Source: Halichondria panicea
Lineage: Eukaryota > Porifera > Demospongiae > Suberitida > Halichondriidae
Assembly (NCBI RefSeq): GCF_963675165.1
Contig: NC_087377.1
Location: 9,751,122 to 9,815,121 of the forward strand
Direction: 5' to 3'
Length of the DNA: 64,000 nt
Part shown: one piece after another, positions 3,401 to 42,202 of the stretch
Layout of the letters: every line of letters begins with the position of its first letter
Numbering within the stretch: the stretch's first letter is position 1
Program-made: the position numbers and the translations under genes
Notes under the pieces: generated by a model
What the model saw: only the letters and a program-made list of their open reading frames with translations
Databases searched by the model: none
Told to the model about the DNA's origin: nothing

Positions 3401-4060
3401 TGACAATCACATTACATCATTGTCAACATAATTATTTCGCCATTGACAATATTTTTCACTATTGAATAATGAAACAAATGGAGCGCCATACTACCAAACT
3501 ACCAGAGTAGGTAACATCAGTGCCATACGCTCCAGGGCTGGTCACATTGATTTTCAAGCTACCAGTCACATTTGATTCAACAGAGTACAAAACAAAATCG
3601 GAAGAGGGGGTAGAATCTGCGTGCGTGAGAAAGACATAATTTATATACAGTACTGAAAAACACCAGTCACTCTGGCGCACCTACAACTTGAATAGTGATA
3701 ATCCCCAAGGACTCAGCAACATTACCAGTGGCGTCCAAACACTCAACCATAGCCGAGTCCATCCAGTGTCTCAGGGACAGCAACTAATTCAGCAGTGGAG
3801 CTCAGTACAGAGTCCATGTTACTGGTTGAGGTGATGATGAATGGACCACAAGCCTCGTTGTCAGGGGGATCGTGACTCAGAAGAGCATTACAGTTTTGTG
3901 TGGTGGTTCCGGTGATCCTCCAGCGAGTGGAACCACTAGCAGTGTTGTTGTGTGAGCAGGTGATGGAGAGGGGAACATCTGGACATATTGTTAGTACTCC
4001 ATTAGTAGAGAGGGGAGTTGACACCAGAATGCCGGCAGCAACTGCATCTACACTGTACAT
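448..4060 (-). pseudogene. Broken inverted copy of the Ig/FN3-like receptor gene
   Basis: Exon by exon and intron by intron this matches the plus-strand gene at 37954-42202, at visibly very high identity from the first Ig-like exon (4060 side) to the last tail exon (448-586). It codes for the same ectodomain, the same hydrophobic membrane segment and the proline-rich start of the tail. Two defects break it. A 4-bp insertion (CTCG, near 3752) shifts the frame after ETLDG, and a 1382-bp fold-back element sits in the next exon at 2109-3490. At both ends homology to the other copy stops abruptly inside exons. At the 5' end this copy reads MYSVDAVAAGILVSTPLS where the other reads NGDMTSTPLS; at the 3' end the tail turns into a different sequence ending SSGHIL and a stop at 448. 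No signal peptide exon was found upstream. It is probably a dead paralogue that shares a conversion or duplication tract with the intact gene. Confidence 0.8.
2109..3490. mobile_element. Fold-back DNA element with 6-bp TSD CTACCA
   Basis: The element begins TATGGCACTCCATTTG and ends with the inverted form, CAAATGGAGCGCCATA. CTACCA stands directly on each side (2103-2108 and 3491-3496), and the uninterrupted receptor copy has CTACCA once. Almost the whole element is two arms of about 620-700 bp around a small loop near 2830-2850. The left arm holds an extra tandem copy of about 90 bp (2652-2742 and 2743-2830). Each arm carries a dense array of ATTGTCAAT motifs (2145-2460 and 3140-3460). No coding capacity is seen. 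Superfamily unassigned; a 6-bp TSD excludes Tc1/mariner (TA) and hAT (8 bp). Confidence 0.85.
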
Positions 4061-6801: not shown

Positions 6802-9649
6802 ATGGGATATAGAAAGTTCACATTTGCCAAACGTAAGAATGCTGAAAGGCATCGAAAGCTCAAAACCAGCAAGGGGCGGCCCCTTAAGCGTCAACATCAC
6901 ATACGCAATGAATCTGTGTCAGAAAAGGTAAACTATTTAAACAAAAAATAATGGTAATTATTCATAGCTATTATTCACAGGTTCCATCTCTCGCTGACAT
7001 CCAGTCTAGATTAATCATGCCCTCACGCTCATGGACCGATCAATCCAAGAGCCCTGTCTCGGAATTGAAACTCTGCAAGGTAGGGGAGCGTACAAGGTCA
7101 TGTGGCATAGATGGTGCTGTGATTTTGACCTTCACTATCAAGAGTGACTGCTGTTGGACATTGAATGTACATGGGAAGTGTGTTACTCCTTCAAACTGTT
7201 CAGCAATTAAGCACTTTTCTCAGTCCGTGACCGTTGATAATGTTAACGAAATGTTGTGCTGCCTGGACAAGCTGAAAGTGTGCCCAGCTCATCCTGAGGA
7301 ACGCTTTGTACGAATGGCTAAAGATAAGAAAGGATTCAGAGATGGTAAGGTATCAGCAGTACTTGATGATAGCGCTGATGTAAATCTCAACGGGGAAAAG
7401 CATTGTTGTACTGTACGCACAAAATCATGTGAAATGTTGGTACCGAGTGGAAAATGTTCAAGATGTGTCTCGTATCGTGCTTCTCTCCGAACAATGTATT
7501 CTCATTGGGAAAAGTCTGTTCTGTCAAGCCCAACTAAACACACAACTAGTAGCAGTCGCACCAACGTTAGATATTTATCAACACCACTAGGAAGAAAACG
7601 TTACCATTCACTGCGAGCTCGAATTACTTCCACAGAGCGCAAACTTGAGAGACTAGTACATAAAATAGAGGCTTCCAACAAAAGTAAAGGAGTTGTGGTT
7701 GATGATGACCTACACCAAGATCTGTCAACAATTGTTGAAGAACAAACTCCTTCAATACACAAACTGTATCCCGAAGGATCATACAAGCGTTTGTTTTGGG
7801 AGCAGCAGAGAGAATTAGTTTTAAAACAAAATTCAAAACAAATGCGGTGGCACCCAACATTCATAAAATGGTGCTTGAATATCAAACTTCATTCCTCTGC
7901 TGCTTATGAAGCCATTCGTGACTCCGGATTTATATCTCTACCTTCTAATCGAACCCTGAGGGATTACACACACCACATTAAGAGTTCAACTGGATTCTTG
8001 CCTGAAGTCACTGAGCAACTCATCAACAGAGAAATTAAAGTAGATTCGCTCAAACTGTACGAGAAACATGTGTCCTTGTGTTGGGATGAAATGCGTATTA
8101 AAGAAAACCTTGTGTACGATAAACATGGCGTTTGAGTTATAGGCTACGTTGACATTGGCAACATTAACAACGAACTTCTAAAGTTTGAGGAAGCTTGTAA
8201 ACAAGAAGCTTATGAAACATCAGGTTCCCGTCGACTACCACTTGCCAAACACATGCTGGTGTTTATGGTCAGAGGGCTATTCATTAAACTCAACTTTCCT
8301 TTTGCCCAGTTTGCTACACACAACCTCTCAGCTGATCAATTATTCCCTCTCGTCTGGGACGCTGTCCAAAAGCTTGAAGCTGCTGATTTAAAGGTTGTCG
8401 CTTTCGTTTGTGATGGTGCTTCTCAAAACAGAAAATTCTTTCGGATGCACTCTAATGAAAAAGATGTATATATGACCAATAATCCGTATGCAGACGAACC
8501 TCGACCAGTATATTTCTTTTCAGATGCTCCACACCTCATTAAAACCGCTAGAAATTGCTGGGCAAATTCTTTTGCTCACACAAGTAGTCGTGCACTATGG
8601 GTAAGCAGTGTGTATATGTATACTGTTAATAGTAAGTCATGTGCATGCATGCATTTTCAATATATGCAGATCAATGGATCCCACATCAGCTGGCATCATC
8701 TCACAGATTTACAGAAGAAGGCTACTTCTAGAACAGGGTTATCGTTGCTACCTAAGATAAAGTCAGAACACCTCCATTTGACTTCGTACTCTCGTATGAA
8801 AGTTTATCTCGCTGCTCAGGTACATATATACCGTATAATATTCAAATACTGCATGTCTATATAGCGTAATATTTATAATTATGCTAAGTGTATAATATTA
8901 TACCCATGCAGGTACTAAGCAGTACTGTGGCTAAAGCCTTGGAATACTACAACGATCCAGAGACAAAAGAAACCCAGCGATTTTGCTTAATGTTTGATCG
9001 TTTCTTTGACTGCCTCAATGTAAGAGCATATTCAGAGGGGAAAAAGAAACGGAAACCAGATCTACTTCCTTATCGGACCCCACGAGATACCCGATTTGAG
9101 GTGAATTTTTAAACAATACACCTACATGCATGCATGTACACTATAATTATATAATTATGTAGTGGCTGGAAAATGACTTTCTGGGATATTTAGCTGAATG
9201 GAAGAATAGTGTATCCAGTCGATCTGGCTTCACTGCAGCTCAAAAGCAACAGATGCGGTTGAGCAGGGAAACAGAGGAAGGACTATATATGACAGGTTTG
9301 CACAATAATAATGATTTATTGTGTATAATTATGTTTCCCTTTAGTGCACTCATTTGTCGGTGTTTCTAAGTACCTGCTGTCCTACCCTGGGGTTAAAGTG
9401 TTTAGCGAGCGCTTCAACCAGGATAATTTGGAGAGTTTTTTTGGTAAACAGAGATCTCGTGGGGGTCGTTGTGATAATCCTACAGTTAAAGATTTTGTAT
9501 ACAATACCACCTCACTACGCCTTCAAGGAGCATTGGCCAAGGACCCAGTCAGGGGTAATTGCAGACGGCGAAACTGTGAACAAGCAGATTTGATCGACAG
9601 TGCTCGTCTTCCAAAGCGCAAGCGTCACTCAGCAAATAGGAAATTGTAA
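6802..9649 (+). pseudogene. P/THAP9-like transposase, 6 exons, one in-frame stop
   Basis: Exons read from splice sites are 6802-6927, 6981-8600, 8670-8819, 8912-9100, 9163-9295 and 9345-9649, giving about 840 codons. A single in-frame TGA at 8133-8135 breaks exon 2; the frame is otherwise open. The start is ATG 6802, followed by a basic region with an AT-hook-like KGRPLK. There is no recognisable THAP finger; instead paired cysteine clusters appear (KVCPAHPEERF and GKCSRCVSYR). Family signatures follow in order: the block WHPTFIKWCLNIKLHSSAAY with LPSNRTLRDYT; WDEM (first Asp); FFSDAPHLIKTARNCWANSF (second Asp); NLESFFGKQRSRGGRCDNPT (Glu). These match the RNase H fold of P-element/THAP9 transposases, which cut and paste DNA in the nucleus. 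Exons 3-5 have exactly the same lengths (150, 189, 133 bp) as the copy at 23617-26659. Confidence 0.85.
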
Positions 9650-9879
9650 ACATCGTACGTGCCCGTACATGACTCCTCTATTTACGTTTTGACATCTGTA
9701 TCATTATAATTCATTTGTATATAGTGTCTCGTTATTTTGACATTGAAGTATTGCAATTTAATTATTGCAAGCAATGTTATCTTGTATATATACATGTATG
9801 CATAAGTGTGACCACAAAAACAGGGAACATATAAAACCACAATGATACACAAGATATAATTATTATAGATCTATAGTGT

Positions 9880-10834
9880 TCATTTCTTCAATCTACTCTT
9901 CTTTAACCCTGCACGAAGGCTAGGCTTGGATTTCATTGTAGTACCAGCAATTTTCTTGTGTTGTTCAACCCATGCACCAGTAGTAGAAAATCCTCTAATG
10001 TTTAACCATAATGTGACGACATCTTTCAAAATCTCTTTACAGTCGGCTTCGTCCAAATCGACAGAGAGCATTGACCAATAAAAGATAATGTTTTCATCTG
10101 CCATGATCTTGTCAACAACAAATTTCTGATCATCACCTGTATGTAGGTATGACTTAAGAGCATGCCGAGTTTTCTTTTCCAACACCAAGAAAAATTGGTA
10201 TGTTGAATCGCTCACTTCGAAGGCTCCCCCACGATTTACAATTTCAAACCACTTCCTTGCATAGTCATAAAATGAGTCTTCAAAAGCACCAATAGACATG
10301 TGCAGTAGACACTGTACAAACGAAGCATACTTTTCACCTTTTCTTTTTTCGTATCGACGTTTTAGGGCAACAGGCACATAACCACAGACATACATAAATG
10401 ATGTTTTGCTCATCTTCTGAAATGTCTTCATCTTGACTAGTAGACTTCCAGGGTGATTCTTTAACCGGAAAGAATGTCTTTATTCGACCTTCAAATATTT
10501 CCTGAGCTACAGATTGAAATAGTAACGCATTAGTGGAGAAAACGTTCAGTTGGCGTAGAAGTTCAGTCCACAAAGAGGTAATGGTAGTGCTGCATCTCAA
10601 TTGATGAAATTTACTCCATGCTCTCCCCCTTTGCAAATCACAGCCTGTTAGACTAGATGCCTCGTTCAGAATACCATCAAGGATCTTTACTAGTGCAGCC
10701 ATACATTGTGACAAAGCAGTAACTGTGTTCTTGTCATCTGCTTCAATCTTGGCTACTAGTCTCCTGCCAAACTCCTGCACCTTGAAACATCTATCACTGT
10801 GGAGATTTAAGTCTGCCCGAGCAAGAACTGTCAC
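9880..10834 (-). pseudogene. Second gene of P-like element 1, one frameshift
   Basis: Convergent with the transposase and about 230 bp from its stop. It matches the intact 324-residue protein at 26756-27730 along its length (shared WSKFHQLR/WSCFHKLR, YVCGYVPVALKRRYE/YIAGYVPFKLLKRYE, FYWSMLSVDLDE/FYWTLLSVDITD, LWLNIRGFSTTGAWVE). The N-terminal half lies in one frame (10834 to about 10400) and the C-terminal half in another (10431 to 9880), so there is one frameshift near 10400 in IIYVC/YVCGYV. No good ATG is visible; the nested MITE at 10905 sits right where the 5' end should be. The YIAGYV motif is, from memory, typical of the C-terminal region of metazoan P/THAP9-type transposases, so this may be a split-off C-terminal subunit. 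Function unproven. Confidence 0.7.
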
Positions 10835-10904
10835 AATAGTTTCTCGTAGATATCGGTAGTCAAGCTCACTTGCTGCAGTATAGTACTACATGTAGTAGTA
10901 GGGC

Positions 10905-12001
10905 TAGCCTCGATCCCAGGCCGAGTTTTCGCTTTTATAACGGTTAGGCGAACAACTGGGCCTGGTACTAGTTGTCTGCGCATGCGTCAATCGTTCGTCA
11001 GATTCTGACGAATGGATATTCTCGTTCACTTTCGTGACATTTATATTCGTGTACTATCGTGTACTAGAAGTCAGTTCCCGTTTTATCATTATTGGAATCG
11101 ATTGGAATGGCTCTTAGCTGAAGCTTCTCTCTTCTCTGAAGCTTATTCTGAAGACTGAACAACAAGGGAAGAGGTATAAAGCTTTGTCAAGCTTGTTAAG
11201 GTCAGATATTTTTGTGTGGGCCCTATGGCCGGCTATGCTATCAAGTTAAGTCTTGTTCATGTTTGGCAAGAATGTAGGTAGACTATAGTTTCATCATTAA
11301 TATGGTGGATCAAGTGAAGAGTGTGAGCTAGAGAACTTGGTGCTGCCATCATCAGCTCGTCGACAATGACACTATAACCGAGAAATTTAATATGTATAGA
11401 TCTACACGTATTTAAAATGTCTACTTCTCTGTACAGGAGCAATGGCTAATATCCAGCTATCCCAACAGTGCTCCTCTTGGCTATACTAACGGACGAGACT
11501 GGACAGTTTGAGGTAAGGGTTTAACCGTCTTTGGTTTCTTTTAATAATTATTGTCCTATACTCACAGACACAGGACTGGAGTATGACCTGTTCATTCGAG
11601 CGTTGCTGGGTAGCTCAGAGACATCAAGAGAATCTACGTTTTCTCAAGCAATGAGTTACGAGTTGGGGCCTAGAATCAGAGAAGTCCAGCAGCCTACTAA
11701 ATCTTTTTGAAACGTAATTTGAAGGCATTCAATCATCCTGAAGTTGCCCTGGGTCACTGTAATTGTGCTGCAGCACAACTGGCAACTCCCCAGGCCTTTG
11801 TGAAGCAGCTCCCTATGTGCATCTTTTGTGTACTCACTCTGTGCATTTTCTGTGTACAAATTTCTATTATTGATTTATTAAATATTTTTGCCGACCACAA
11901 ATATACAATGAAAATTTGACGCATGCGCAGACAACTAGTACCAGGCCCAGTTGTTCGCCTAGCCGTTATAAAAGCGAAAACTCGGCCTGGGATCGAGGCT
12001 A
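10905..12001. mobile_element. MITE with perfect 9-bp TSD TAGTAGGGC, copy A
   Basis: TIRs start TAGCCTCGATCCCAGGCC and extend about 90 bp, through 'ttttataacggttagg' to 'gcatgcg'. The 9-bp TSD TAGTAGGGC is at 10896-10904 and 12002-12010. It is nearly identical to copy B at 60910-62002; the same TIR alone builds the 198-bp copy C at 33938-34135. A 9-bp TSD is the mark of Mutator-like elements. The interior has exon-like blocks bounded by splice-like signals (about 11453-11511 and 11568-11650) but no transposase. Confidence 0.85.
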
Positions 12002-15707: not shown

Positions 15708-18580
15708 CTCTGAGCATAGATATATGTAGAAGAGAGGGATTGGAAACGGAAGTAGATTTCAATGTCCTTCACATATGACCTCGATAAATATCTGCGCCTC
15801 GCTTAATGAGGGCTAATCTATTCCCCAGGAACTTCGCGGGTAACTGAGATTATTGCAAATCTAGGATTTTATGAGTTGTCACTAGTATTCTGTCAAGTTT
15901 TCCAGTATCCAGTGCAACTGTGCTTTATATAGATAGTGAATAACCATTATTCAAGCTCTATTTACCGTTGCAACTATCTTCTTCATTGAATTTAGGTAAG
16001 TTTAATCTTGTATTGTACACATTTATCCCTTTTTCTCTGAAATGATTAATGTTTAGGTCATATACTTCAATATGCTTGTTGGTAAATCATGTGGTATCAC
16101 CCCAAGCCAAAGAAAATTAGTCATACATCAGCTGGTAGAATTTAGTGCTAGAAAAAAGTTGAATTAAAGAGCACCACTAAAGATCCCTTTTTTGGGAATA
16201 CGCTAAGCGTTACAGAAATTTTAATTTTAGGCATACATTCCCTTATGATTGGTGATCACCCCAAGAGCATTAGTTTTGGATCAGGTGGATGTATAGCTTT
16301 TGTGTGCATGAATGTGTAGTCACCTATTTTTACCTCATAATTGTTATTGGCCCGGTAGTTAGATTGTGGTGAAGGGCCTGTAGGCCCGAGATATTTAACT
16401 ACTACAAATGCTGTTTCATCTATATTTTATATAGCAATACCTCACAAGCCAAAACTTACTGAGTACGCTGAAGAAAAGAAGACAGAGGAATACCCCTCCT
16501 CTCTACACCCTACACGTCAACGCCCTCGTAAATGTTATCGGCTGTTCCGGCTATATATACACCCTTGTATACCTCACCAGCTTCTCTCCATCTAAGACTG
16601 TCTGATTAGAGTGCTAAACTAATCATAATTATAGCTGTAATAATCATTTTTATCGTGTAAGTTTTTGTTAATGTTGTTCGGTTTGATCCCACTCGTTTTA
16701 CACTTAGAAAGCAACTGGCAGTGCTGTGGAGTGTTTTGCTGTCTCCAAGTGTATGTAATTATACTTAATGAATTGGAAATTGAAATGTACGCTCACCAGC
16801 CTAGTATATATAGAAACTTCGTACAATTGATTCATCAAAAGTGAAAACAATTATTAAGAAAGTTACATTGTGTATTATGTATCTTGTCGTATGAATGATC
16901 ATGGTTATTGCCTCAAACTAGTGGACTTCTTGATGGTTTTTTTTTCATTTAATTAAGTTGGCAGCAAAAGAGAAGCCTCTGACAGTCACAAATACATTCA
17001 CAATTTCAGGGAACTAAGCATCCTCTGATGATTTTATATCTACTGTGAAACAAGTATCCAATACCACTAGCTCTGCACATTCTCCTTACTATTACCATGT
17101 ACCAATGCACTGTTGATTGTGTCTCTTTCCCTATTCTTTCACCGCTTATGCAACTAGTGTTCAAGCTGGCGCTGTGCTAATGCCTCTCGCCATGTTTTTG
17201 CTTTCGCTGAAAAGTATTAGAGTGTTATATTAGTTTCTATAATGAATATTAAAGTTAGCTTATCTATATAAAGTCACTGAGAAGAAAAGACTTATTTACA
17301 TGCATCTATTGCTGTATTATGTGGCTTACCAGGACCTCAAGAAAGAAGAAAATTGATTCTTCCAGGATCTGTGTAGTTCAGTGTATATAATATCTAAGAA
17401 GAAAAGACCTGTGTACATGCATATTGTTATCTATATTGTTATATGGTGGCTTACCAGGCCTTCAAGACAAAGATGATTCTGCCAGGAGGATCTGGATCTG
17501 GATCTTGGATATTACATGGGGAATGAACGCGCATGCGCATTACATCCACAGGAATAATTAAAGGGTGTGTCCAAAGAGATCAATTTTCACAAATGGCTAC
17601 TGCTAGCTAGCTGTTTTTTAACAGATATTTTCTGAGTATTGTAGCTAACAAAAAGCTAGCGCTTTAGTGCAAGGCCAACTCATATGTTGAATAGAAAGTT
17701 TGTGCGGACAGATGATGCTATGAAAGATTCTGAAGAGACTGCAACAGCCTTCAATGTGAGTCAAACTAGCCATAACTCGAGAAAGAAGCTTTAGTTTGCT
17801 AATACACAAATCAACGAATCAAAATCCAAGAGAACGTGGCTAGAAGCCTATAGTAGGGTTCCCACTTTAAAATACCGATTTTCAGGAGATGGTTCTACGA
17901 CACTTCTAGCATAGTTACCTACCTGGAAAGAATCTCTAGCTGAAATTTGTTCGTGTTTTGAGCACTTTTACTATTGTTACAGCCTCTTTCTTCTTACTTT
18001 TTGTCAAAAATTGCGATGATGTAATTCAATTCAGTTAATTAGACAAAAGATCAACCTTTACCAGTGATTAATTGTGCAGTGTATGACAGACACATGACAA
18101 GAGGACTCAGTGAGAGCCAAATCTAAGCTGACTGGTATGTTTTCTCACTGTTTAATGTATATTAGCAACTAGGTGTGTAAATTACCGCTTCACCGCAAGT
18201 AGTGTATTGAGCTCTGAAAATTCAAATTTGCATCCAAAGTTTTTCCTCACAGCATTTTTAGGCTTAGGGGGACATGATCAATTGCCAGAATTATTTTGAG
18301 TGGATCCTAGCACATTGTTTCATCTGGCTGGCTCAGCTGGCTTGTTCAAATGTGTTTTGAGTACCGTTTTCTTTATAAAGTGCACCATTTTGTATTTACA
18401 CAATTCCTTGCACTCAAATTCAGGTGTAGACAACAAGAAATTCAGACTCCAGTAAGTATTGCAGTGTACGTATATTTGTTGAGTGCAGTGTTGGCAAACA
18501 AGACCAATTACTCATGTACTATTGTGTTTTGAAGACTTATGCGGTGCTAAATTTAACCAGCTATTTATGTATATATGCAG

Positions 18581-21500
18581 TGGCTGGAACGAGATCATCT
18601 TCTTTAAGACCTACCTACGGTGAATTGATTGACATCTTTGAAAAAGTTGAGCACAATGAAGATTCTCTCATATCCGAGTTCAAAATGCATTATCCTAAGT
18701 GTCCCATAGGTCGTCCTGATCGTTTTTTTGGAACGGTTAAACGTATAGTAGCTCCAACACAAGAATCACTGATTGGTGAACCTAGAATAAGTGGATCACC
18801 TTTACAATCTTACAGAAAGAGGGTATGGCAACCAAGAATACGAAATCCAACAGGATCTGTGCCAGCAGGTTAGGACACTTAGGACACTACATCATTAATT
18901 TTAATTGAAATATCTACCATAATATTGTTGCATGTACAATTAAGATAATTTGTAGCCACAATTAATAATAAAGCAATTAATAATAAAGCAACCCATAAAC
19001 TCCCTTATTATACTTAGGTGCAGCTGTGTTCCCAAAAAGCCTCAATAGCTATGGATTAAATCAAGAGCTTCTAGCAACCGTCTTTAATCAAGTTCTTACT
19101 GGAAAACAGCCAAAGTGGCGATTAAGAGGAATCCCTGAAATTCACTTTTATAAGGAACTCCACCCATTTTTAAAGAAATGGTCCGTGTCTTGCAAATTGA
19201 CAAAGCAGACAATTGGCAGATTCTATAACTCTATAGACCCTACCCTAAATGCCAAAGGAATTCGACCTGATAATGTGTACAGGCTAATAGAAAGAATATC
19301 TCGAAGTACACAACCTCCTAATACCATGATGTCATATGGAACATCAGATAAGTCTACCGTTGAAGTGCAAATGGAAGCATCAAGTTGTACGAAACATGTC
19401 GAAGCAATGAGTTTCGAATGTATTCAATTAAGGGAAAAACTTGAGGTATCCCACAAGCAGCTGTCTTGTGCTCGAAAGGCACTGCAGATTATCACGAATG
19501 AGAAAATTGAGCTTAAAAAGCAATGCAATACTGCCAAAATTAAAGCTACAAAAATAAAATCCAAGTATGAAGTGTTAGAAGACAATTTCGCTCAGCTAGA
19601 GGAGGATAACATTGAACTTTCCACAGCTATTTCAGATTTACAAAGTGAGCTTGAGTCTAATCCTGACGACACATCCGATTGTGATGGGGATTTCTCAATA
19701 CTAACAAAACACGGAAGAAGGTACTCACCCGTTGTCAGGAAGCTTTACTATACCTTGCTCTCAAAACAAATTCCCTCAGTGAAGATAGCCGATATAATTA
19801 AGACTGTGATTAGATGTTTTTTTCCTGCCATTGATGTTGACGGATTGCAGCTTCCTAAACGGTCATGTGCTGACTATATGCGTAAATGTGAGCTGGTAAC
19901 AATTAGTAACGCACACAAAGCTACAGTTCTGAGTGAGTGCACATCAGGATATCGATTGAATACAGATGGCACTACAAAGAATCAAAAAAAAATTGGAGGG
20001 GTAGGAATCAATGACATTGTGATTAGTGTAAATGAACTACCAGATGGGACAGCTGCCAGTTCCATTGAAGATGTCTCGAGAGAATTAGAAAAGCTGCGTA
20101 AAATCGCTCAGACTCTCCATTTACCTAATGCAGACCAAATAAATTGGACTCTTTTCACTGCCTCGAGTTCTGATAGTGCATCAACCCAAAAACATTTCAA
20201 TAAATTGATAGAAGAATGCAGACAGAAAGATGAGCTTAGGTTTGGTGCTGCAACACTAGAAACAGTTGAAATTGTAGAGTCATTTTGCTCGATGCACCTT
20301 GGAGTTAATCTTCGTAAGGCTTTTTTAAGCGGTACCGTCCAAGAAGATGCTGTTACTGATTCAAGTAGGAAGTACCACCCAGTTGATAAATTTGTACACG
20401 AATTCTGCAAGTTGTTTGGCAAACACGGCACTCCTGAGTATGGTAGTGGTGCTAACGATTTCCCAGACTTTCTGGCTCTTATGATTAATGACCATACTCT
20501 AAGTGACGAGTCACGTCAGTATTTCCAAATTTGCTCCACAGTGAACCTGCAGCGGCAGGTAGGAAGTCGCTACTTTGTTTCAGCCAGCAATGCAGCCAGA
20601 ATAGTTTTTCTCGCGAAAGCAGCAGTGCAATTTTTACACTACACAGGGAAAGTGAATGGTAATAAGCTTGAAGTGGAATTGTTTGCTAAACTGAATAACG
20701 TTAATGAAATGGCTCAATTGCGTGCAGATGCATTAATGTATTACCATACATACGCTGATCTTGTTATGTTGTCAAAATCTAAAGAGCTGGCTAAAAGTGT
20801 TATGGACATGAACAACCATTATCTTGAATTGCTGTGTTTTTTAGGTGACGTTCAGACATCTCCTGAAATAGTGTTCGACAAAACGTATGAAGTGTTTCGA
20901 TCCGAAAAAGAATTGTATGGTCCTAGTAGTACAGTGAATCACCGCCACCATAAAAATGTTGAAGCTCTTTATAATAAGCTATTCGAAGAGACAGAGGACG
21001 ACTCAGGTGTCTTGTTGCTGATTGTCACTGGTGCTGCAAAAATGAAGGAGAAGCTGTTAACATATGCTGGAAAACAATTACCTTCTGGTGAATATTGGAA
21101 CCCCGAACCAGCAGTGAAGAAAGTGCTAATGGAGCTTAAACCAAGCAATGATTTTTGCGAGTCACTCCTGGGTCTAAACGACTACTTGACAACTGCAATT
21201 CCTAACCTAACTCAAGTCGCAAGGTCAAACCTTGTTCAGGTGAAGAAAAACCACACCTTGCAGTGGCTTGATAAGCTTCCAGAGAAACAGCAAAGTAAAT
21301 TGCTGGATCTTGCTGTTCAGCAAAAGCCAACGGTGAATGCTGAACAAAAATTAGCGCAGAAAGATATAATCGAACAAAGGCAATCACGTCTGTTTCAAGC
21401 AAACAAGAGGAGAGAAGCATTGAGGAGGAAGGCACAGAAGGAGAAAGATGAACTTTCAGAACATCACTTAATTAGAACATCGCAAGAACTAAACCAAATT

Positions 21501-21932
21501 TTGCTGGATATTGATGCAGAAAGTATTGCTTTGAATAAGAAGAAGAGTAAGAAGCTTTCGCTATTGAAAATACAGATTAATATCAGGAAAAAAGTATTGA
21601 GGCAAAAGATTTGTATTCCACTAAGTCGGGCAAGGAAACAGCGGTGTCTAAGTGAGATTTTGAACGATTTAATACAATTTCTCGACGACCATCCTATAGA
21701 ATTCGAACACACAAGCTATTTGGAAAATCCTAGCTCTTTGATTGGTAAACGTATACGCCACAAATTTGTAGTTGGTGATACGAACATAGTAGAATGGTAC
21801 CATGGTACTATAGTAAATTACGATGCAGTTGAAAAGGAACACAAAATTCAGTATGATAACGAGGAAGAGTTGTGTTCATTTGATTTGGTATTAGACTTAC
21901 TTAGTGGTGACTTAGAAGTACAAACTGGATAG
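18581..21932 (+). CDS. Large transposase candidate with coiled coil and Tudor-like C-terminus
   Basis: Two exons are clear, 18581-18868 and 19018-21932, joined in phase 1 across a 149-bp intron, giving at least 1066 residues. A further 5' exon in phase 1 must exist but I could not place it. Exon 1 is basic and ends RKRVWQPRIRNPTGS. Exon 2 has a helical N-terminal region, a coiled coil (about 120-225), then an RNase H-like pattern: YRLNTDGTTKNQ (first Asp), LFTASSSDSASTQKHFNKL (second Asp candidate), CSMHLGVNLRKAF (His motif) and NDFCESLLGLNDYL (Glu candidate). A charged helix follows (about 785-850). The end, IGKRIRHKFVV...WYHGTIVNYDAVEKEHKIQYDNEEE, reads like a Tudor/Agenet barrel, a histone-reader fold. 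The exon is 2.9 kb and open throughout. It is probably the element's transposase, of a superfamily I cannot name. Confidence 0.75.
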
Positions 21933-22105
21933 TTATGATTATATATACATGTACATAATAATTATTAAAATAAAATTGTATGCATTATTTTTTATTGTCA
22001 ACTTAATTTTGCTTGAAAGTCTTAATGTCAAACTTCAATTGCAAGCGCTGACACATAAATAATAGTGCTATAAATTTATAACAGGCATTAGTGTACGTTA
22101 ATTGT

Positions 22106-22359
22106 CTATAAGTCTTTTAGTTTGTTAGTCAGCTCGATGACGAAGTGGCGTGCGATATCATATTCCATTTGAGCTGCTTCAGCAACCTTTTTAAATTCTC
22201 CGAATTCCATACTGAGTCTCTTTACTTCTGCCTTCAACAGCTTGAGCTCTGCTTTTAGCGTTACACTATCTGCAGCTGGAGGGCCTGTGAATCAATACAA
22301 GGTATTTAATGGTTTATTTTATAAAAATATTTACCTGAGTCCAATTTTCGGGTTGCCAT
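22106..22359 (-). CDS. 67-residue coiled-coil protein of the same element
   Basis: Two exons on the minus strand: 22335-22359 (ATG at 22357-22359, MATRKLDS) and 22106-22284. The intron is 50 bp with a GTAAAT donor and a CACAG acceptor. The protein runs MATRKLDSGPPAADS and then one amphipathic helix rich in Lys, Glu and Leu (KAELKLLKAEVKRLSMEFGE and on to ELTNKLKDL). It is only visible once the intron is removed. The large gene ends 174 bp away and points toward it. A leader acceptor (ATTACAG, near 22365) lies just upstream of the ATG. It may be a partner of the large protein, a regulator, or an assembly factor; no family recognised. Confidence 0.6.
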
Positions 22360-23032
22360 TTGATATAACCTGTAATGGATATATAAAATCATTAATTAGG
22401 AACAATTTTTACAACAAAGACCGCTGAAATGGTGCACTTTATAAAGAAAACGATGCTCAAAACACATTTGAACAAGCCAGCTGAGCCAGCCAGATGAAAC
22501 AATGTGCTAGGATCCACTCAAAATAATTCTGGCAATTGATCATGTCCCCCTAAGCCTAAAAATGCTGTGAGGAAAAACTTTGGATGCAAATTTGAATTTT
22601 CAGAGCTCAATACATTACTTGCGGTGAAGCGGTAATTTACACACCTAGTTGCTAAATATACATTAAACAGTGCGAAAACATACCAGTCAGCTTAGATTTG
22701 GCTCTCACTGAGTCCTCCTGTCATGTGTCTGTCATACACTGCACAATTTAATCACTGGTAAAGGTTGATCTTTTGTCTAATTAACTGAATTGAATTACAT
22801 CATCGCAATTTTTGACAAAAAAGTAAGAAGAAAGAGGCAAAAATAGCTGTAACAATAGTAAAAGTGCTCAAAACACGAACAAATTTCAGCTAGAGATTCT
22901 TTCCAGGTAGGTAACTATGCTAGAAGTGTCGTAGAACCATCTCCTGAAAATCGGTATTTTGAAGTGGGAACCCTACCTATAGAAGCTGTTAGCTTTTGTC
23001 GCATTGCAACCGTTGAGCAGTTACAGCTGGAA

Positions 23033-23079: not shown

Positions 23080-23616
23080 CGATTTCCTGTATACATAACG
23101 GCCCATGCGTGTCACAAGTGTACCCACGCAATAGAATTGGGAGTTTGGCGCCCAGAAGAGCAACTGGTGTGGTTCCCAAGGACACTGCTACTCTGAGAAA
23201 CCTTCTGCACTTGCGCAGTTGCACTGCAAGTACTTCTAGAGTACTTCTAGATATAGAGCATTAACTGTACCACGTGTCAGGCAGCAGAGAGCAAAAATAC
23301 ATCTGGTTTATCCTAGTAAACTAGCTTATAATTCTCATTTCCAGACTTTGTGGGATTTTCCTAGGCGGTGTGGACCTAACCAGAGCTTCTATTATACCTT
23401 AGGTAAGTTGAAGTTGATTATAGAGTGAGGTTAAACAGTCTGAACTTCATTTATGAACATACTTTCTTCAGGACAGACTATTTAGACTCTGCTAGACAAC
23501 ATTAATGTGTGGGATTTTCTCTAGCCCTGTATCATAGTCATAAATTTAGTCATTGGTGCTATGGCATGTTTAAGTACTAAGAAGTGCTATTAGAAGTGTT
23601 TTTTTTCCAAACAGTA

Positions 23617-26600
23617 ATGGGTCGACGCAAACTTAGATTCTATAAGTTGCCTAAAAATTTCGAGCGAATATGCCCAAAAAAGTCAAAAAAGTCAGTCGGT
23701 AGGCCTATGAAACAACCTAAGAAAAAACCCGATACTACTGGTACGAATACTGATGTGTCTTCAGAAGATGTGGAAAATACTGTTTCCGGCTCCACCAGTT
23801 TCAGTAGTGATGCCAGTACATTGAGTACTAATGACACCACCACTGATTGTTTTGACAGTCAATCAAATTACGATAACGTTGATGGTTCTAATATACAACA
23901 ACAAATTCACACACTGCCACCATCATCGAGTACTAATATGCCTAGTGACACCACTGAATGTTTTGACAGCCATTCAAGTTACGATAGTGATGTTATCACA
24001 GCACACAACGTAGAGGGTTCTGCTCCGAAAGACATACAGCAAGAAATTCACACACCGCCACCATTATTGAACCTTAAGCTACCAAGTAGCAAGTGGATTA
24101 GGCAGGATCAAAATCTCTGCAAAGTGAGCAATATGCATTCCAAAGAATCGTTGGCTATAACGTTGTGTTTAGTTGTTAACAAGGACATGTCTTGGAATCT
24201 GTTTGTTCATGGAAATGAAGTGAACACTGATGAATGTGACGTCCTAAAAGCAATTCCAAACATATTGAGTGATATCCACCTGGAAGAACTTGTATCCACA
24301 CTTGACAAGTGCTCCGTATGCCCCGGTAATCCAGACTACAAATTTGTTGACATGGTTGAATCCAAAAAAGGAAAGCTGTTTTCAAAAAGTGGTATTGATG
24401 TTGTAGCAAAGGTGGATATTTTTGAGCCAGTTATTCTCGATGGTACTACGTACCCAAAAACTGTACGAAACTCGAGGTGTCAAATGATAGTTAATGTTCG
24501 CAAATGTCAGTCATGTGTATCATATAGGGATTCCTTAAGAGGAATATTTCATCGCTGGTCCAAACGAAAATTAAAGTCTCCGATCCGCAAGTTGTCAAAA
24601 AGTAGAGTAAATATTCGCTACTTGAGTACACCTGAAAAGTTTGCAAGATATTCAGATTTGAGAGGTCGGTACCATGCACAGTCAAAAGGAGTTGAGCGCC
24701 TCAGAGAAAAAATTGTACAAATGACTAAAAAGAACCACGTTGTACTAGATTCAAGTTTGAGCTCGGATATTGTTCAGTTAATGGACGGAATGACAAAAAG
24801 TGTCCATCAAGAATGCCCAGAAGGCTCTTTTAAACGAGTCTTTTGGGACCAACAATTAAAGTCAGCTAGAGTAACGGATTCAAGGCAAGTTCGATGGCAC
24901 CCTGCGGTTATAAAATGGTGTTTACATCTCAAATTCATTTCATCTGCTTGTTACCATGCCCTACGTGGCTCTGGTCTGATATCTTTGCCCTCAGAAAGGA
25001 CATTGCAAGATTATACCAATTGTATACGTCCTGGGATAGGATTTGTGCCTGAAGTTGATGCTCAGTTAATAAAAGAAGCACGTGTTTCTGAGGAAAAAGA
25101 CAAATTTGTAGTTCTTGTATGGGATGAAATGAAGATATGTCAAGATTTAGTTTTTAATAAGCATAGCTGCGAGTTGATGAGGTTTTTGAATATTGGTGAT
25201 GTGAATGCTCAACTGGACAAAGCTAGTGAAGATTTAAACTCAAATAGTAGTCATAAAGACATTGCATCACACGTGCTGCTTTTCATGATAAGAGGAATGT
25301 TCTCAAACCTCGAGTTTCCCTATGCCCACTTTGCTACAAGAGGAATTACCGCAGATGCACTGTTTCCATTGGTTTGGGAAGCAGTTAGACATTTGGAGTG
25401 CTGTGGATTAAATGTTATAGCTTTCTGCTCTGATGGTGCCTCTCCTAACAGAAAATTTTATAAGATGCACGATAGAGGGAATGGTGTTGTGAACAAGACT
25501 ACGAATCCTTTTCAACCTGAGCGAGAGATATATTTTATAAGTGATGTACCCCATCTGATAAAAACCACAAGGAATTGTTGGTCCAATTCTTTTGCGAACA
25601 AGAATTCTAGAGCCCTTTGGGTAAGTTATTAAAACATTATTTTAGGCGAAAACACATGCATGTCCTTAATTATTTCAGATTAATGGCAAGCACATCAGCT
25701 GGGGCCACCTCAAACACTTGTATGAGCGTACTAAGACTCAGTAGGGACTCAGTTTGCTACCAAAGTTGAAAAAAGATCATATTCACCTTACTTCATATTC
25801 AAGGATGAAAGTGAACCTGGCAGCTCAGGTAAGAAGAATTCAAGCTGTCACTCATTAGTACCATTTCAATACATACAACTATTGAAATTTCACAAGTTGT
25901 ATTCCTTGTAGGTTCTAAGCGCATCAGTTGCCAATGCCTTCGACTATTATGGTGATAGCGAGATGGGAGAAACAACAAACTTCGTCCGTTTATTTGATCG
26001 TCTTTTTGACTGTTTCAATGTGCGAAGTTTCAAGGAGAGTGTTGTAAAAAGAAAACCAGATTTAAGACCATACCGAGACCCCTCCGACAATAGACTGTCC
26101 GTGAGTTTATAGGAGGATGCATAGTGTGCTCTATATTTCAATTCTTACTTTACAGTGGTTGAAAGATACTTTTCTCAAGTATCTGCAAGATTGGCAGTAC
26201 TCTGTCAAATGCAGAAGTGGTTTTACTGGTCAGCAACGAGCGAAGATGCTTCTCTCTATCCAGACAATAGAAGGGCTTAAAATAACAGGTAAATAATGCA
26301 GATTAATGTCATTGTATCATTAACAGTGGTGCTTATCTTACATGTGCATACCCCTGTATATTTTCCTAGTGACATCCTTTGTGGAAATGGTGCCTGTTCT
26401 ACTGTCCATACCTGGAGTAAAATGTGTTCTGTCTGAGAAACTATGCCAAGACCCTCTCGAATCGTTCTTTGGCAAACAGAGGGCTGCTGGGGGGAGGAAT
26501 GAAAATCCGAATGTGCAGCAGTTCTGTTCAAATACGATCTCACTTCGTGTATAAGGATCAGCAGCACTAGAACCTGTTCGAGGTAACTGTGGAAAGAGGC

Positions 26601-26659
26601 TATGCACTACAGACACTGACTGCTTGAGTGAACCTTTACCTAAAAGGCCAAGAAACTAA
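23617..26659 (+). pseudogene. P/THAP9-like transposase, 5 exons, two in-frame stops
   Basis: Exons are 23617-25620, 25679-25828, 25912-26100, 26156-26288 and 26370-26659, about 921 codons. The start ATG 23617 lies just after a splice acceptor (CAAACAG), so an untranslated leader exon probably precedes it (donor candidate at about 23400). Domains: basic N-terminus with AT-hook-like VGRPMKQPKKK; a Ser/Thr/Asp-rich linker with two copies of ECFDSHSSYDS-type text; cysteine clusters (KCSVCPGNPDY, RKCQSCVSYRDSLR); WHPAVIKWCLHLKFISSACY with LPSERTLQDYT; WDEMKI (Asp); FISDVPHLIKTTRNCWSNSF (Asp); PLESFFGKQRAAGGRNENPN (Glu). Two stops interrupt it: TAG at 25742 and TAA at 26552, the latter where element 1 reads Gln. 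Homologous to 6802-9649, with shared intron positions. Confidence 0.87.
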
Positions 26660-26755
26660 CAACCGAATTTTAGCATTTAATTCATTGTGTATACACCCTC
26701 GTCACAATAAATATTGTTGTAATTATATAATTAATTGATGTGGCACAATACAAAT

Positions 26756-27730
26756 TCAACCAAATGTTTTTTTCAGTTCTTTTCTAAGTCCTTTTGTCTT
26801 GCCAATTTTCTTAGGCAAGTACTTTTCAAGCCATGCCTTTGCAATTGAAAATCCACGAATAGTGACCCAAAGACCAATCATTTCGCTCAGCAACATAGTG
26901 GCTTTTATTTCGTCCGTTATATCTACTGACAACAATGTCCAATAAAACTGTACATCTTCATCACCTGCAACAGCCCTTGTTATCGTTTGTCTTCGGTCTT
27001 CTTCGCCTAAAGTTGAACCTCTGTTGAATATAATTATTAACTGTTTCCGTACCCTAAACTCTATCACAAGAAACAGTGAGTAAGCTGTATCATTCACTTC
27101 AAACAGCCCTCCTCTATCAACCAGCATACACCACTTTCTAGTATATTCCATTAAGGTACTTTCTTCGCCATTAACTGCCATTGAAGATAAGCATTCAATG
27201 AATTCTTCGCTCTCCTCACAAACACTTTGTTCGTAACGTTTTAGCAATTTGAAGGGTACATATCCAGCAATGTACCTAATGACATTTTCTTCATCTGTAG
27301 TGAGCTCAGGTATATCGACAGTACTCTCGCTTGGTTTCTTACTGAAACGGCTCTTGATAAGGTCAGAGTATAACTTTTGGTTAATGTGTTGATAAACAAG
27401 TGGGCTTAGCGTTACACCATTGGACTTGCAAAAATCCTTCCACATTTTACTGATATCTCCCAGCCTCAACTTATGGAAACAAGACCAAATATTTTCTCGC
27501 ATTACATTAAATGATCGAAAATTTGCTTCCCTAGTGATACAGTCAAGAAGGCATCTTTCCAAAGAGTGCATTAAGTTGGTGGAAAACTCCTCAAACGCAC
27601 TTACACATATTTCTTTATCTGTTATAACTCGGAGGAAGGCACTAGTTTGATCTTGTGCTGGCTTGCAATGTATAAAAGTAGAGTCTGTTATGATTGAGCA
27701 GAGAGTAGCCCTCACAATACCGCTAGACAT
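26756..27730 (-). CDS. Intact second gene of P-like element 2, 324 residues, YIAGYV motif
   Basis: A single open exon that starts MSSGIVRATLCSIITDS at 27730 and ends KKTFG at 26756, 96 bp from the end of the convergent transposase. The N-terminal half is helical with scattered cysteines; the middle reads TTDEENVIRYIAGYVPFKLLKRYE; the C-terminal half includes WCMLVDRGGLFEVNDTAYSLF, VQFYWTLLSVD and IGLWVTIRGFSIAKAWLEKYLP, then a lysine-rich tail. No zinc finger or catalytic triad is visible. A homologue sits in the same place in element 1, so the gene belongs to the element and is not a chance neighbour. YIAGYV recalls the C-terminal part of P/THAP9 transposases, absent from the transposase gene here, so a split-transposase subunit is my preferred reading. 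It is intact although its transposase is broken. Confidence 0.75.
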   Translation of the reverse strand: MSSGIVRATLCSIITDSTFIHCKPAQDQTSAFLRVITDKEICVSAFEEFSTNLMHSLERCLLDCITREANFRSFNVMRENIWSCFHKLRLGDISKMWKDFCKSNGVTLSPLVYQHINQKLYSDLIKSRFSKKPSESTVDIPELTTDEENVIRYIAGYVPFKLLKRYEQSVCEESEEFIECLSSMAVNGEESTLMEYTRKWCMLVDRGGLFEVNDTAYSLFLVIEFRVRKQLIIIFNRGSTLGEEDRRQTITRAVAGDEDVQFYWTLLSVDITDEIKATMLLSEMIGLWVTIRGFSIAKAWLEKYLPKKIGKTKGLRKELKKTFG

Positions 27731-27928
27731 CCTGTTGTATAGTCACTACTGTAGTTGGTCAACACTTAATTAACAGTAGTCTCACTAGCCGATTCGAGTG
27801 TGAGTAGCTGTCCTTGATCCTCTTGATAATTATAATACTTCTTATAATTATAAGCTTTATCTTTGTTGCCTTTATGCTTTATCTTTGTTGCCTCCGAATG
27901 CACGTGACCGTGACACGCATGGGCCATA

Positions 27929-28526: not shown

Positions 28527-28829
28527 TACATGCGTTTTCCAATCCCTCTCCCTACTATCTATGATCTATGCTCTGAGTTAGCTCGGATCAGGTGGCATAT
28601 ACCCGGTGCCGTATATGCCACCTGACCCAAATTTCCTACCGTCGTCATTAGCTGGGCGGAGCCCGGCACCCGTTCCCAACGGGTGGCCGGTGACACGCTT
28701 ATATAGGATTTGTACTGCTGCACTCAGGAGTGCAGCCCAATCAGATTGCAGTATTGCAAGTGGTTGGTTAACACCCACTTAGCTAGGTGGTGCAACGTTA
28801 GCTGCATGGGCGGAGCTGCCTTGAGCAAA

Positions 28830-30326
28830 ATGGAGAAAGTTACACAAGCTGTCACAGAAGCTGCTAACGAGCTTGGATTCCCAGTTCTGAAGCCAGAACA
28901 GTTGGAAGTAGTCACTTCTTTTCTGAGAGGCAGAGATGTCTTTGCTGTATTGCCTACTGGATTTGGAAAGAGCCTTTGCTATGCTTGTTTGCCTGCAGCA
29001 TTTGATAAAATATTGGGGAAGAAGAAAGGTCATTCTATTGTAGTAGTAGTCACTCCTCTGCTGGCCATCATTCATGATCAGGTATGTAAGGCTAGATAGA
29101 ACATACATATAATTATACGTACATGTGCATATGAGCTGTTTACACGTAACTAGATCATTCTAAGCTGGATGCTTTTATTCTATATATATAGGTAGCCATT
29201 AAAGGCATCTCTAGCACATATGTCTCGGGCGAGATGTCTGATGCAGCTACAATGGATGCGATCTTCCACGGAAAGTACCAGCTAGTATTCTTTACACCTG
29301 AAATGATCATCAACAAGAAGCATTGGAGAAGACTTCTAGGGGGAGATGTGTATGCTAATAGACTCAAGGCTTTGATAATCGATGAAGCTCATTGTGTGAA
29401 GAAATGGTATGTATTTGACTCCTCGTTTTTTATTGTACCAATAATATTATTGCAGGGGTGAGACTTTCAGGCAAATGCTGTTGAGAATTGGAGAAGTGCG
29501 CAGCCTCATTCCAACATCAGCTCATGTGATGGCACTAACAGCAACAGCCACCCGAAGTGACATTTCATTCATTTCTCGTATTGTTGGCCTAAGAAACCCA
29601 TTTGTCATTACGAGAGTCCCAGTAATCCCAAATTTGATTTATGCTGTTGGATTGTTCAAAAGTATACCAGAGACATTCCAAAACTTGGCCCAGAAATTGG
29701 TAATCGAAAGAAACAAGTTTCCCAAAACAATCATATATGGACGTTCTTTTGGAGTGTGTGGTGACATGTACCTCTTCTTTAAGGATTACCTTGGAGCTGC
29801 ATTCACAAATCCTGATGATGCACCTGATTTTCCTGAATTTCGCCTCGTGGACATGTTTACAAGTGTCACTGATCCAGCCCATAAATCTGAAATCATTCGT
29901 TTATTTAAGGGTGATGGCAATCTTCGCATTGTTGTAGCTACTATGGCATTTGGCATGGGTGTTGATTGTCCAAACATTCGGCAAATCATTCATGTTGGCC
30001 TGCCAGACGATATCAGTAGCTATGTACAAGAGACTGGTAGAGCAGGTCGAGATGGTAAACCATCACGTGTAACTCTTTTGAAGGCAAGAATTTACCATCA
30101 AGTTGATAATGAATATGCTTCAAACACTACAGATTGTAGAAGGGGTAGTCTTTTCCGAAATATTGACAATTACAAACATGTTGATCTCGGTTTCAATTGC
30201 TTGTGCTGTGATATTTGTTCTAAGTCATGTTTATGTGGACAGTGTGACCTAAGACTTAGGTTATTAATTTGTTACTTCTTTCAGCTAATTACAATTTCAA
30301 CCGCACATTACTCTACTCTTATTTAA
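28830..30326 (+). CDS. RecQ-family DNA helicase encoded by the transposon
   Basis: Three exons, 28830-29081, 29192-29406 and 29456-30326, give an open frame of 445 residues; an in-frame ATG at 28806 would add eight. Superfamily 2 motifs in order: Q-motif FPVLKPEQ, motif I AVLPTGFGKSLCY, motif Ia VVTPLLAIIHDQV, motif II IIDEAHCVKKW, motif III MALTATATRSD, motif V VVATMAFGMGVDCPNI, motif VI YVQETGRAGRDGK. It ends in a cysteine cluster, CLCCDICSKSCLCGQC, like the RecQ C-terminal zinc region, but lacks winged-helix and HRDC parts. RecQ enzymes unwind DNA 3' to 5' using ATP. At 445 residues it is a minimal form. Its position inside the TIRs and TSDs argues for an element gene, not a host repair gene. 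The promoter was not identified. Confidence 0.88.
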
Positions 30327-40900: not shown

Positions 40901-42202
40901 TCAGGCTATTTGTGTGGATAGTGAATGGATGGTAGAAAACAACTCTTGTTCAAGTAGGTCTTCAAAAGCTCTATTTAATATGTGTGTACTTTATATATGT
41001 ATATCTTTTGCAGTTGCTGTCTCGTTTATGGTAGTTTTTATCATTGTGCCACTCCTGGTTATTTTTGCTGTTGTTGTTACTATTGTCGTATTGGTTCTTT
41101 ATCAGAAGCTAAAAAATAAAGGTAAGACTTTGTGTATATCTTTTGTAATTGTATAGTTGCATACTTTCTTCATGATAGAGGGTTCATCAAGGCCAGTAGA
41201 TGTTGAAATTGATGGACTGACGTAAGTTTGCTATTAATGACTGTTAACATCATTATAAGTTAACGCTGTTGCTTGGTTTTTTTCAGGAAAACTCCCCCAC
41301 CTCCTGACTCCATCTATGCTGACCTCGACTCCATTGAGCACGAGGCAGCCCCGGGCACTGAGGACCAGTACGCCATGGTCGATAGAAAGGTCAAGAAGAA
41401 CACAAAACCAAAGCCAACTCCACCAGAGGCTTTGTATCAGGTACTTGTACTGTATCAAACAGTAGGATATGTACTGAGTGGGGTGTAGGTTACTTACCTT
41501 GTGCTTTCTCCTTACAGTGTCGCCTATTTGTGATACAATTATTCTACTCTTATTTATTATATAAGATTATACCGGTTCTTCCCTATCCAGGACCCTAACA
41601 CGATTGAGCATGAGACCGCTGCCTCTGGAGACACTTGTGCCGTGGTAGACAAGCCCAAGAGGTCCTCCAAGAAGAAGGGAGGGCCGGATGTCGTTCCACC
41701 ACCCAGTGAGGGGGTGAGTAGAGATGGTCTTGTCTAGTATGCAGTTACTATTTCCGTAGTGTGCATGTACCTTGAATATGTATGTGCCTGCTGGGGGAGC
41801 TTTAGAGTGTGTTTTAAGTGTCTATGTGTAATTTCCTGTATCATTTGCATTGTGTAGCTACATGTAATTGATTTTCTCTTCGTCAACTTACGTGGGACAA
41901 AGTATCGGTTAGAGTAAAACTTAAGAGTTCAAGTACTTGTGGGTACTAGTTGAGTCAGTTGTGTACTACTGTAACAGCATGACTGTTCCTGGTACCTCTT
42001 TAGAGGTCAACAGAAGCCTTACTAAACACAATACTGTACATTATGAACATGTACTGTACATGTACACAATACAAACGTGCATGTTATCAGTGACCTTATC
42101 TTTCCCAATGCTCATATTGGTGTTTAGGAAGGAAGGGAAACCATGCATTATATAGGAAGAGTCATTTTCTCTGGGTACTATTTGGTAGTTTACATTCAAT
42201 AA
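37954..42202 (+). CDS. Type I receptor with Ig/FN3-like ectodomain and ITIM-like tail
   Basis: Twelve exons fit GT-AG borders and one frame (37954-37977, 38027-38066, 39238-39588, 39653-39934, 39983-40068, 40113-40329, 40450-40953, 41014-41121, 41179-41221, 41287-41440, 41591-41713, 42128-42202), giving 668 residues. Exons 1-2 encode the signal peptide MQVTLSPTILCLLGCLNLGY. Next come an Ig-like domain (CSHNNTASGSTRWRI to CLDGAG), N-glycosylation sites, FN3-like strands (PVTLTWTVEE, YNFTVSVRNVAGE) and a cysteine-rich unit. The membrane helix is about residues 503-527 (FMVVFIIVPLLVIFAVVVTI). The tail has SIYADL, an ITIM consensus fit, then YAMVDRKVKK and a diverged repeat CAVVDKPKRSSKK. This suggests a cell-surface receptor that signals through tyrosine phosphorylation. 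No named orthologue recognised. The last exon is the least certain. Confidence 0.8.
38296..38497. mobile_element. Palindromic MITE in intron 2 of the receptor gene
   Basis: Arms of about 70 bp: AGAGAGAGAGCGTGTAACTT at the left is matched inverted at the right, as is 'gcagaatccaaaaccacta'. A smaller hairpin follows at 38753-38846 (AACACCTACATTTAAATGAG against its inverse). The intron also contains a C9 tract near 39006. Confidence 0.65.

Follow-up and report, generated by a model that had tools for sequence, protein, structure and literature searches.

A probably autonomous DNA transposon with long terminal inverted repeats, two convergent genes and a probable Spindlin-like Tudor tail in the sponge Halichondria panicea

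RESULTS

A 5,122-bp element with long terminal inverted repeats

We analyzed a 64,000-nt stretch of the genome of the sponge Halichondria panicea (contig NC_087377.1, positions 9,751,122 to 9,815,121; hereafter, the window, whose own numbering is used throughout), which contains a 5,122-bp element at positions 17854-22975. The ends of the element, TAGGGTTCCCAC...GTGGGAACCCTA, are directly flanked by two perfectly matching copies of a 7-bp target-site duplication (TSD), CCTATAG, and the chance of a 7-bp match lying exactly at both ends is ~6e-5 (4^-7). Inside these copies lie two terminal inverted repeats (TIRs), whose 549-column alignment contains 6 mismatches and 12 gap columns (4 indels), i.e., they are 98.9% identical outside the gaps; chance cannot account for TIRs of such length. 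The element shows what defines the TIR order, namely, terminal inverted repeats and a short flanking TSD. A preliminary description of this DNA, prepared from the letters alone, had reported the same TSD and near-identical TIRs of ~540 bp around an apparently whole DNA transposon; the TSD and the TIRs (537 and 549 bp) were recovered here, and the reading as a whole DNA transposon is supported. A scan of the window for TAGGGTTCCCAC at up to two mismatches returned only the two element ends, both of them exact, where ~3 loose matches would be expected by chance. The predicted DNA fold of the TIR end was unremarkable (z 0.37).

Two convergent genes with matching TATA-like boxes

The gene models (Table 1) were built from GT/AG sites and reading frame only, and all splicing is, thus, predicted. 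They comprise a large gene on the (+) strand, with a predicted protein of 1,067 aa, and a small gene on the (−) strand, with a predicted protein of 67 aa; the two genes are convergent and both lack internal stops. The open frame around exon 3 of the large gene runs over 977 codons (positions 18999-21932 on the [+] strand), the chance of which is ~1e-28 (for one frame at the base composition of the window). The start codon of the large gene would be split A^TG, with the A at position 18451 and the TG at position 18581, such that the coding part of exon 1 would consist of one base. These open frames and splice-consistent models agree with the preliminary description, which had proposed two unbroken convergent genes, one with a large exon and a spliced upstream exon and the other spliced on the opposite strand. 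In addition, each TIR contains, close to its inner edge, a palindromic TATA-like box, CTTTATAAAG, and the two boxes are predicted to act as promoters, one for each gene. These matching boxes and the C-terminal Spindlin-like stretch described below are new relative to the first description.

Table 1. Features of the element at positions 17854-22975 of the window
Feature	Positions	Strand	Remarks
TSD, left copy	17847-17853		7 bp, CCTATAG; direct reading
TSD, right copy	22976-22982		7 bp, CCTATAG; perfect match to left copy
Left TIR	17854-18390	+	537 bp; starts with TAGGGTTCCCAC
TATA-like box, left TIR	18371-18380	+	Palindromic, CTTTATAAAG; upstream of large gene; predicted promoter role
Large gene, intron 1 (predicted)	18452-18580	+	GT/AG sites only
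Large gene, exon 2 (predicted)	18581-18868	+	Residues 1-97
Large gene, intron 2 (predicted)	18869-19017	+	Splice-site reading
Large gene, exon 3	19018-21932	+	Rest of the protein, up to residue 1067 and the stop codon; includes the heptad stretch (261-309) and the proposed residues D413, D482, C520xxH523, E811
Spindlin (Spin/Ssty)-like Tudor stretch, C terminus of large protein	21735-21929	+	Sequence comparison and controls
AATAAA, possible polyadenylation signal of large gene	21969-21974	+
AATAAA, possible polyadenylation signal of small gene	21991-21996	−
Small gene, exon 2 with stop	22106-22284	−	67-aa coiled-coil protein
Small gene, intron (predicted)	22285-22334	−
Small gene, coding part of exon 1	22335-22359	−	25 nt; ATG at 22359
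Right TIR	22427-22975	−	549 bp
TATA-like box, right TIR	22437-22446	−	Palindromic, CTTTATAAAG; upstream of small gene

The large protein as a candidate transposase

Searches with the large protein returned no transposase family match in Pfam or PHROGs (whole open reading frame [ORF] and pieces), NCBIfam (ORF and one piece) or the PDB sequences, in line with the earlier statement that no family could be named. The search method does work in this window, because the P-like ORFs at positions 23581-25632 and 6912-8864, which served as a positive control, were recognized by the same searches as matches to PF21787. Matches to ATG16, Sas-6 and CCCAP in the Pfam scans were read as coiled-coil matches and rejected, as were the matches to SMC, of which the best had an E-value of 6.4e-5 but scored 20.9 bits where the NCBIfam cut-off is 567. 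By sequence, the element belongs to none of the families tested.

The preliminary description had suggested an Asp/Asp/His/Glu pattern pointing to an RNase H-fold transposase. Such residues can indeed be placed by eye as D413 (RLNTDGTT), D482 (TASSSDSAS) and E811 (SNDFCESLLGL), with C520xxH523 between D482 and E811 and only one other [C/D]xxH in the protein (at residue 220). The resulting spacing is D413-69-D482-38-C520xxH, followed by ~290 residues from the CxxH to the Glu. In a single-sequence structure model of residues 322-864, which was of poor quality (predicted local distance difference test [pLDDT] score of 38), D482 is positioned just before a helix and E811 inside one, which fits the assignment but carries little weight. 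The D-D-[C/D]xxH portion is not significant, as 1,030 of 2,000 shuffled proteins also contain it. We regard the Asp/Asp/CxxH/Glu pattern as plausible, its reading as an RNase H-fold transposase as consistent but unproven, and a DDE (Asp/Asp/Glu) transposase as the probable, but unproven, identity of the large protein.

A Spindlin-like stretch at the C terminus of the large protein

When the last 110 residues of the large protein were compared with the PDB sequences, Spindlin-1 was the top match (E-value of 8.4e-5). The 65-aa tail alone also matched Spindlin (E-value of 3.9e-4), with spindlins making up 17 of the 20 distinct sequences listed. Four composition-matched control queries, of which three were shuffled and one was reversed, matched no spindlin; their best E-values were 0.025, no match at all, 0.38 and 0.61. 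The resemblance is to the Tudor-like repeats of Spindlin and spans the last ~63 residues. Specifically, the tail aligns to repeat 2 without gaps over 62 residues with a score of 68 (shuffle mean, 22.6) and to repeat 1 with a score of 52, neither of which was equaled in 5,000 shuffles, although these pairwise counts are uncorrected for the choice of target, Spindlin having been picked after the database search.

The H3K4me3 (histone H3 trimethylated at lysine 4) pocket of Spindlin is described as consisting of F141, W151, Y170 and Y177 (PMC7878818). In the 110-aa alignment, the tail keeps three of these four methyl-lysine cage residues, i.e., F, W and Y at the exact spacings of +10 and +19. The idea that all four are kept was dropped, as the residue at the exact spacing of the fourth is Cys. 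Taken together, the tail of the large protein is likely a Tudor-like domain as judged by sequence comparison, and it is possible, but unproven, that it reads methyl-lysine.

Predicted coiled coils in both proteins

Heptad analysis of the small protein found all 14 of the a/d positions in residues 17-65 to be hydrophobic, which none of 2,000 shuffles equaled and which marks this protein as a near-ideal coiled coil. The large protein has a strong heptad stretch of its own at residues 261-309 (12 of 14 a/d positions hydrophobic; none of 60 shuffles as good), and our guess is that the small protein may pair with this second coiled coil.

Neighboring features and searches for relatives

The element is located between two P-like transposase stretches, one on each side (positions 6912-10885 and 23581-27742), that are related to each other. 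In each, ORFs on the (+) strand match PF21787 and are faced by ORFs on the (−) strand. The PF21787 matches of the P-like ORFs at 23581-25632 and 6912-8864 had a best E-value of 1.8e-21; of the three pieces, 6912-8132 matched most weakly and fell below the cut-off, and the ORF at 23581-25632 also matched the P transposase structure (E-value of 2.4e-4). The facing (−) strand ORFs had no Pfam match above the cut-off; from their position, we guess that they belong to the P-like stretches. No TIRs of at least 22 bp enclosing either stretch were found.

Elsewhere in the window, two ~1.1-kb copies of an element without a recognized gene (positions 10905-12001 and 60910-62002) are 98.5% identical, have 86-bp TIRs and 9-bp TSDs (TAGTAGGGC and AGGTAAAGG) and resemble a Mutator-like element (MULE) in outline. 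A 1,382-bp insertion at positions 2109-3490 is, over its whole length, a single inverted repeat that is 85% self-complementary. It has an apparent TSD of 6 bp, CTACCA, and its uninterrupted site is visible in an inverted duplicate at positions 39252-41337. On the (−) strand, an exon-like ORF at positions 34136-34528 matches DUF6589 (E-value of 7e-27) and may share a gene with other (−) strand ORFs up to position 36968, two of which had no match. The (+) strand at positions 28707-30326 carries DEAD-helicase and helicase-C ORFs that look RecQ-like by eye, and the profile search also found a reverse-transcriptase RNase H piece in the window.

Relatives of the element were absent from the viral contigs, genome contigs and plasmids searched, all of them viral or prokaryotic collections with little bearing on animals; five of six query patterns were valid in one viral-contig scan and three of six in one genome-contig scan. 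A translated search of phages gave two matches, at E-values of 2 and 8, which we took as chance.

DISCUSSION

The TSD and the TIRs indicate that the sequence at positions 17854-22975 is very probably a DNA transposon, and we read it as a complete and probably autonomous one of the cut-and-paste type. Our best description, which we hold with a probability of roughly 0.65, is that of an intact TIR transposon with a MuDR-like organization and no superfamily identifiable here, encoding a probable (unproven) DDE transposase with a probable Spindlin-like Tudor tail.

Several observations weigh against this description. The window holds a single copy of the element, and no second one was found in it. 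As for the transposase, there is the lack of any family match reported above; the frequency of the D-D-[C/D]xxH spacing among shuffled proteins; a strand-context filter that missed the proposed site, yet was passed by 561 of 2,000 shuffles; and the poor model of residues 322-864, with which a Foldseek search against the PDB gave nothing at an E-value of <0.001. As for the tail, Spindlin still ranked first among the PDB sequences when the whole ORF served as the query, but with an E-value of 0.25, and the score against Spindlin repeat 3 (33) was reached in 116 of 5,000 shuffles. The Spindlin E-values given above sum homologous repeats of one chain, while the independent E-values (i-Evalues) of single stretches were 1.1 and 5.9 for the 110-aa query, and repeat 2 alone would reach ~1.5 against the whole PDB (a rough BLAST-type estimate). 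These single-repeat figures are not significant and make our confidence slightly lower. Moreover, the fourth cage position (Y177) is Cys in the tail, with Phe two residues later; the Spin/Ssty model was not among the Pfam matches of the tail, the nearest Tudor model there being below its cut-off (E-value of 0.0062; 16.7 versus 27.2 bits); and the single-sequence structure model of the tail was of poor quality (pLDDT of 42) and yielded no structural match in the PDB by Foldseek at an E-value of <0.001.

Other placements of the element need to be weighed against this description. It is improbable that the element is of a diverged hAT or MuDR type, with a TSD of 7 bp by happenstance. The C/DxxH motif is described as common to both of these superfamilies, and in MuDR, too, promoters in the TIRs serve a pair of convergent genes, but Pfam returned no hAT or MULE match for the large protein. 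The TSD of hAT elements is 8 bp, whereas that of the element is 7 bp, and MuDR/MULE elements would have one of ~9 bp. A 9-bp TSD is reported to be common for MULEs, and the same paper describes a nematode MULE family with mostly 9-bp TSDs and mentions unrelated, nested insertions with inverted repeats and TSDs of 7 bp, left uncharacterized there (PMC3169594). Kolobok differs in its TSD, which is TTAA rather than CCTATAG. We also consider it unlikely, if less so than a hAT or MuDR affiliation, that the element belongs to the P superfamily as a highly diverged member similar to Galileo of Drosophila, in which the THAP domain would have been lost or replaced. The TIRs of Galileo are long, its TSDs are mostly of 7 bp, and its residues are D327, D415, D449xxH452 and E642 (PMC4168063), and the 7-bp TSD of the element falls within the 7-8 bp of the P superfamily. 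The D-D and D-CxxH spacings of the large protein are also similar to those of the Drosophila P transposase (73/36), human THAP9 (70/40) and Galileo (88/34), while CxxH and E are ~190-200 residues apart in all three, against ~290 in the large protein (residue numbers in PMC8230255 and PMC4168063). On the other hand, the large protein contains no THAP-like C2CH pattern, its first 195 residues have no Pfam match, and neither the whole ORF nor its pieces match a P-type Pfam model; the P-like ORFs of the same window do match PF21787 and, in one case, the P transposase structure, at the E-values given above, and the large protein shows no significant similarity to them (hhalign E-value of 0.38; BLASTP E-value of 0.55). 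Two further groups share the TSD length. Membership in KDZ (Kyakuja) was rejected, as the TSD fits but the ends do not (CA..TG without TIRs would be expected), and membership in Dada was ruled against by the ~540-bp TIRs and by the absence of a tRNA at the rejoined empty site; Rfam gave no match in the window as given, the rejoined site lying outside that scan. Galileo/P, Dada and Kyakuja, the groups with TSDs of ~7 bp in the published descriptions covered, each depart from the element in at least one tested feature.

Two alternatives concern not the placement but the nature and the novelty of the element. The large protein might not be a DDE transposase, with the element being non-autonomous or using another enzyme and the DDE pattern arising by chance. 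The missing profile match, the poor fold model (pLDDT of 38) and the non-significant D-D-[C/D]xxH pattern speak for this possibility, which we nonetheless find unlikely, to a degree close to that of a P affiliation: DDE-type strand transfer is usually marked by TIRs together with a short TSD, the element has both, and the large gene is the only large gene within it. A possibility that we take more seriously, while leaning against it, is that the family has already been catalogued, e.g., in Repbase, under another name. Similar uncharacterized proteins seem to exist in several invertebrates, and the family may already have a name outside the literature covered, which consisted of open-access papers. 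In that literature, among the matches listed, we found no such element, nor, in the portions of text available, a Spindlin or Tudor domain in any DNA transposon. A Gypsy element of Ectocarpus with a C-terminal Tudor domain was reported in 2025 as the first such transposable element to its authors' knowledge (PMC12477816).

If the description of the element as an intact transposon with a Tudor-tailed transposase is correct, then like promoters in the two TIRs would drive the genes toward one another, an arrangement also seen in maize MuDR. The large protein would bind the long TIRs and oligomerize via its own coiled coil, and a metal site formed by D413, D482 and E811, within an RNase H-like fold that a long insertion interrupts just past the CxxH motif, would cut the ends, which the protein would then join across a 7-bp stagger. 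The Spindlin-like tail could dock on a methylated histone tail (with H3K4me3 as the first candidate) and bias the landing site, while the 67-aa coiled coil could act as a helper or repressor by pairing with the coiled coil of the transposase. A bolder proposal, which we put forward tentatively and consider doubtful, is that the element represents a new superfamily of DNA transposons in which a single Spindlin-like Tudor repeat, built into the transposase, reads histone marks and thereby steers the element to marked chromatin (e.g., H3K4me3), with a tiny coiled-coil protein as its regulatory partner. Were this true, the element would, as far as our searches of open-access papers show, be the first known case of a Tudor domain in a DNA transposon, and chromatin-guided integration of a DNA transposon would become directly testable via three aromatic residues. 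If the superfamily is new, its enzyme would be an unexplored one for gene delivery in the laboratory, and animal genomes could be checked for domesticated genes derived from it.

Among known systems, maize MuDR has two convergent genes started from promoters in its TIRs (PMC3440606), and it shares with the element the convergent gene pair, the promoters in long TIRs (predicted ones in the element) and the combination of a transposase (a putative one in the element) with a second protein of unknown function. Unlike MuDR, the element has a 7-bp TSD and no MULE profile match, and the likeness is one of architecture only. The Galileo branch (PMC4168063) shares long TIRs, a TSD of mostly 7 bp, the Asp/Asp/[C/D]xxH/Glu residues (as proposed for the element) and similar first spacings, but the element lacks a THAP-like pattern and a P-type profile match, its CxxH-to-E stretch is ~100 residues longer, and it adds a predicted coiled coil, a probable Tudor-like tail and a second gene. 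Kyakuja of fungi has the 7-bp TSD in common with the element, as in the two Laccaria families described; unlike the element, these families have CA..TG ends and, in the text available, no TIRs (PMC12730594). Dada shares a 6-7-bp TSD and a C/DxxH-type transposase (putative in the element), whereas Dada-U6 and Dada-U1 are described, in the portions covered, without terminal inverted repeats, and Dada elements with clear ends lie in small RNA genes (PMC3706591, PMC8869645). Gypsy-10_Ec32 of Ectocarpus carries a Tudor domain at its C terminus, as the element probably does, but is, unlike the element, a long terminal repeat retrotransposon (PMC12477816). Finally, Tudor-like repeat 2 of Spindlin-1 shares with the tail the 62-residue ungapped alignment and the F/W/Y cage residues; unlike Spindlin-1, with its three repeats, the tail would be a single repeat with Cys as the fourth cage residue, fused to a putative transposase.

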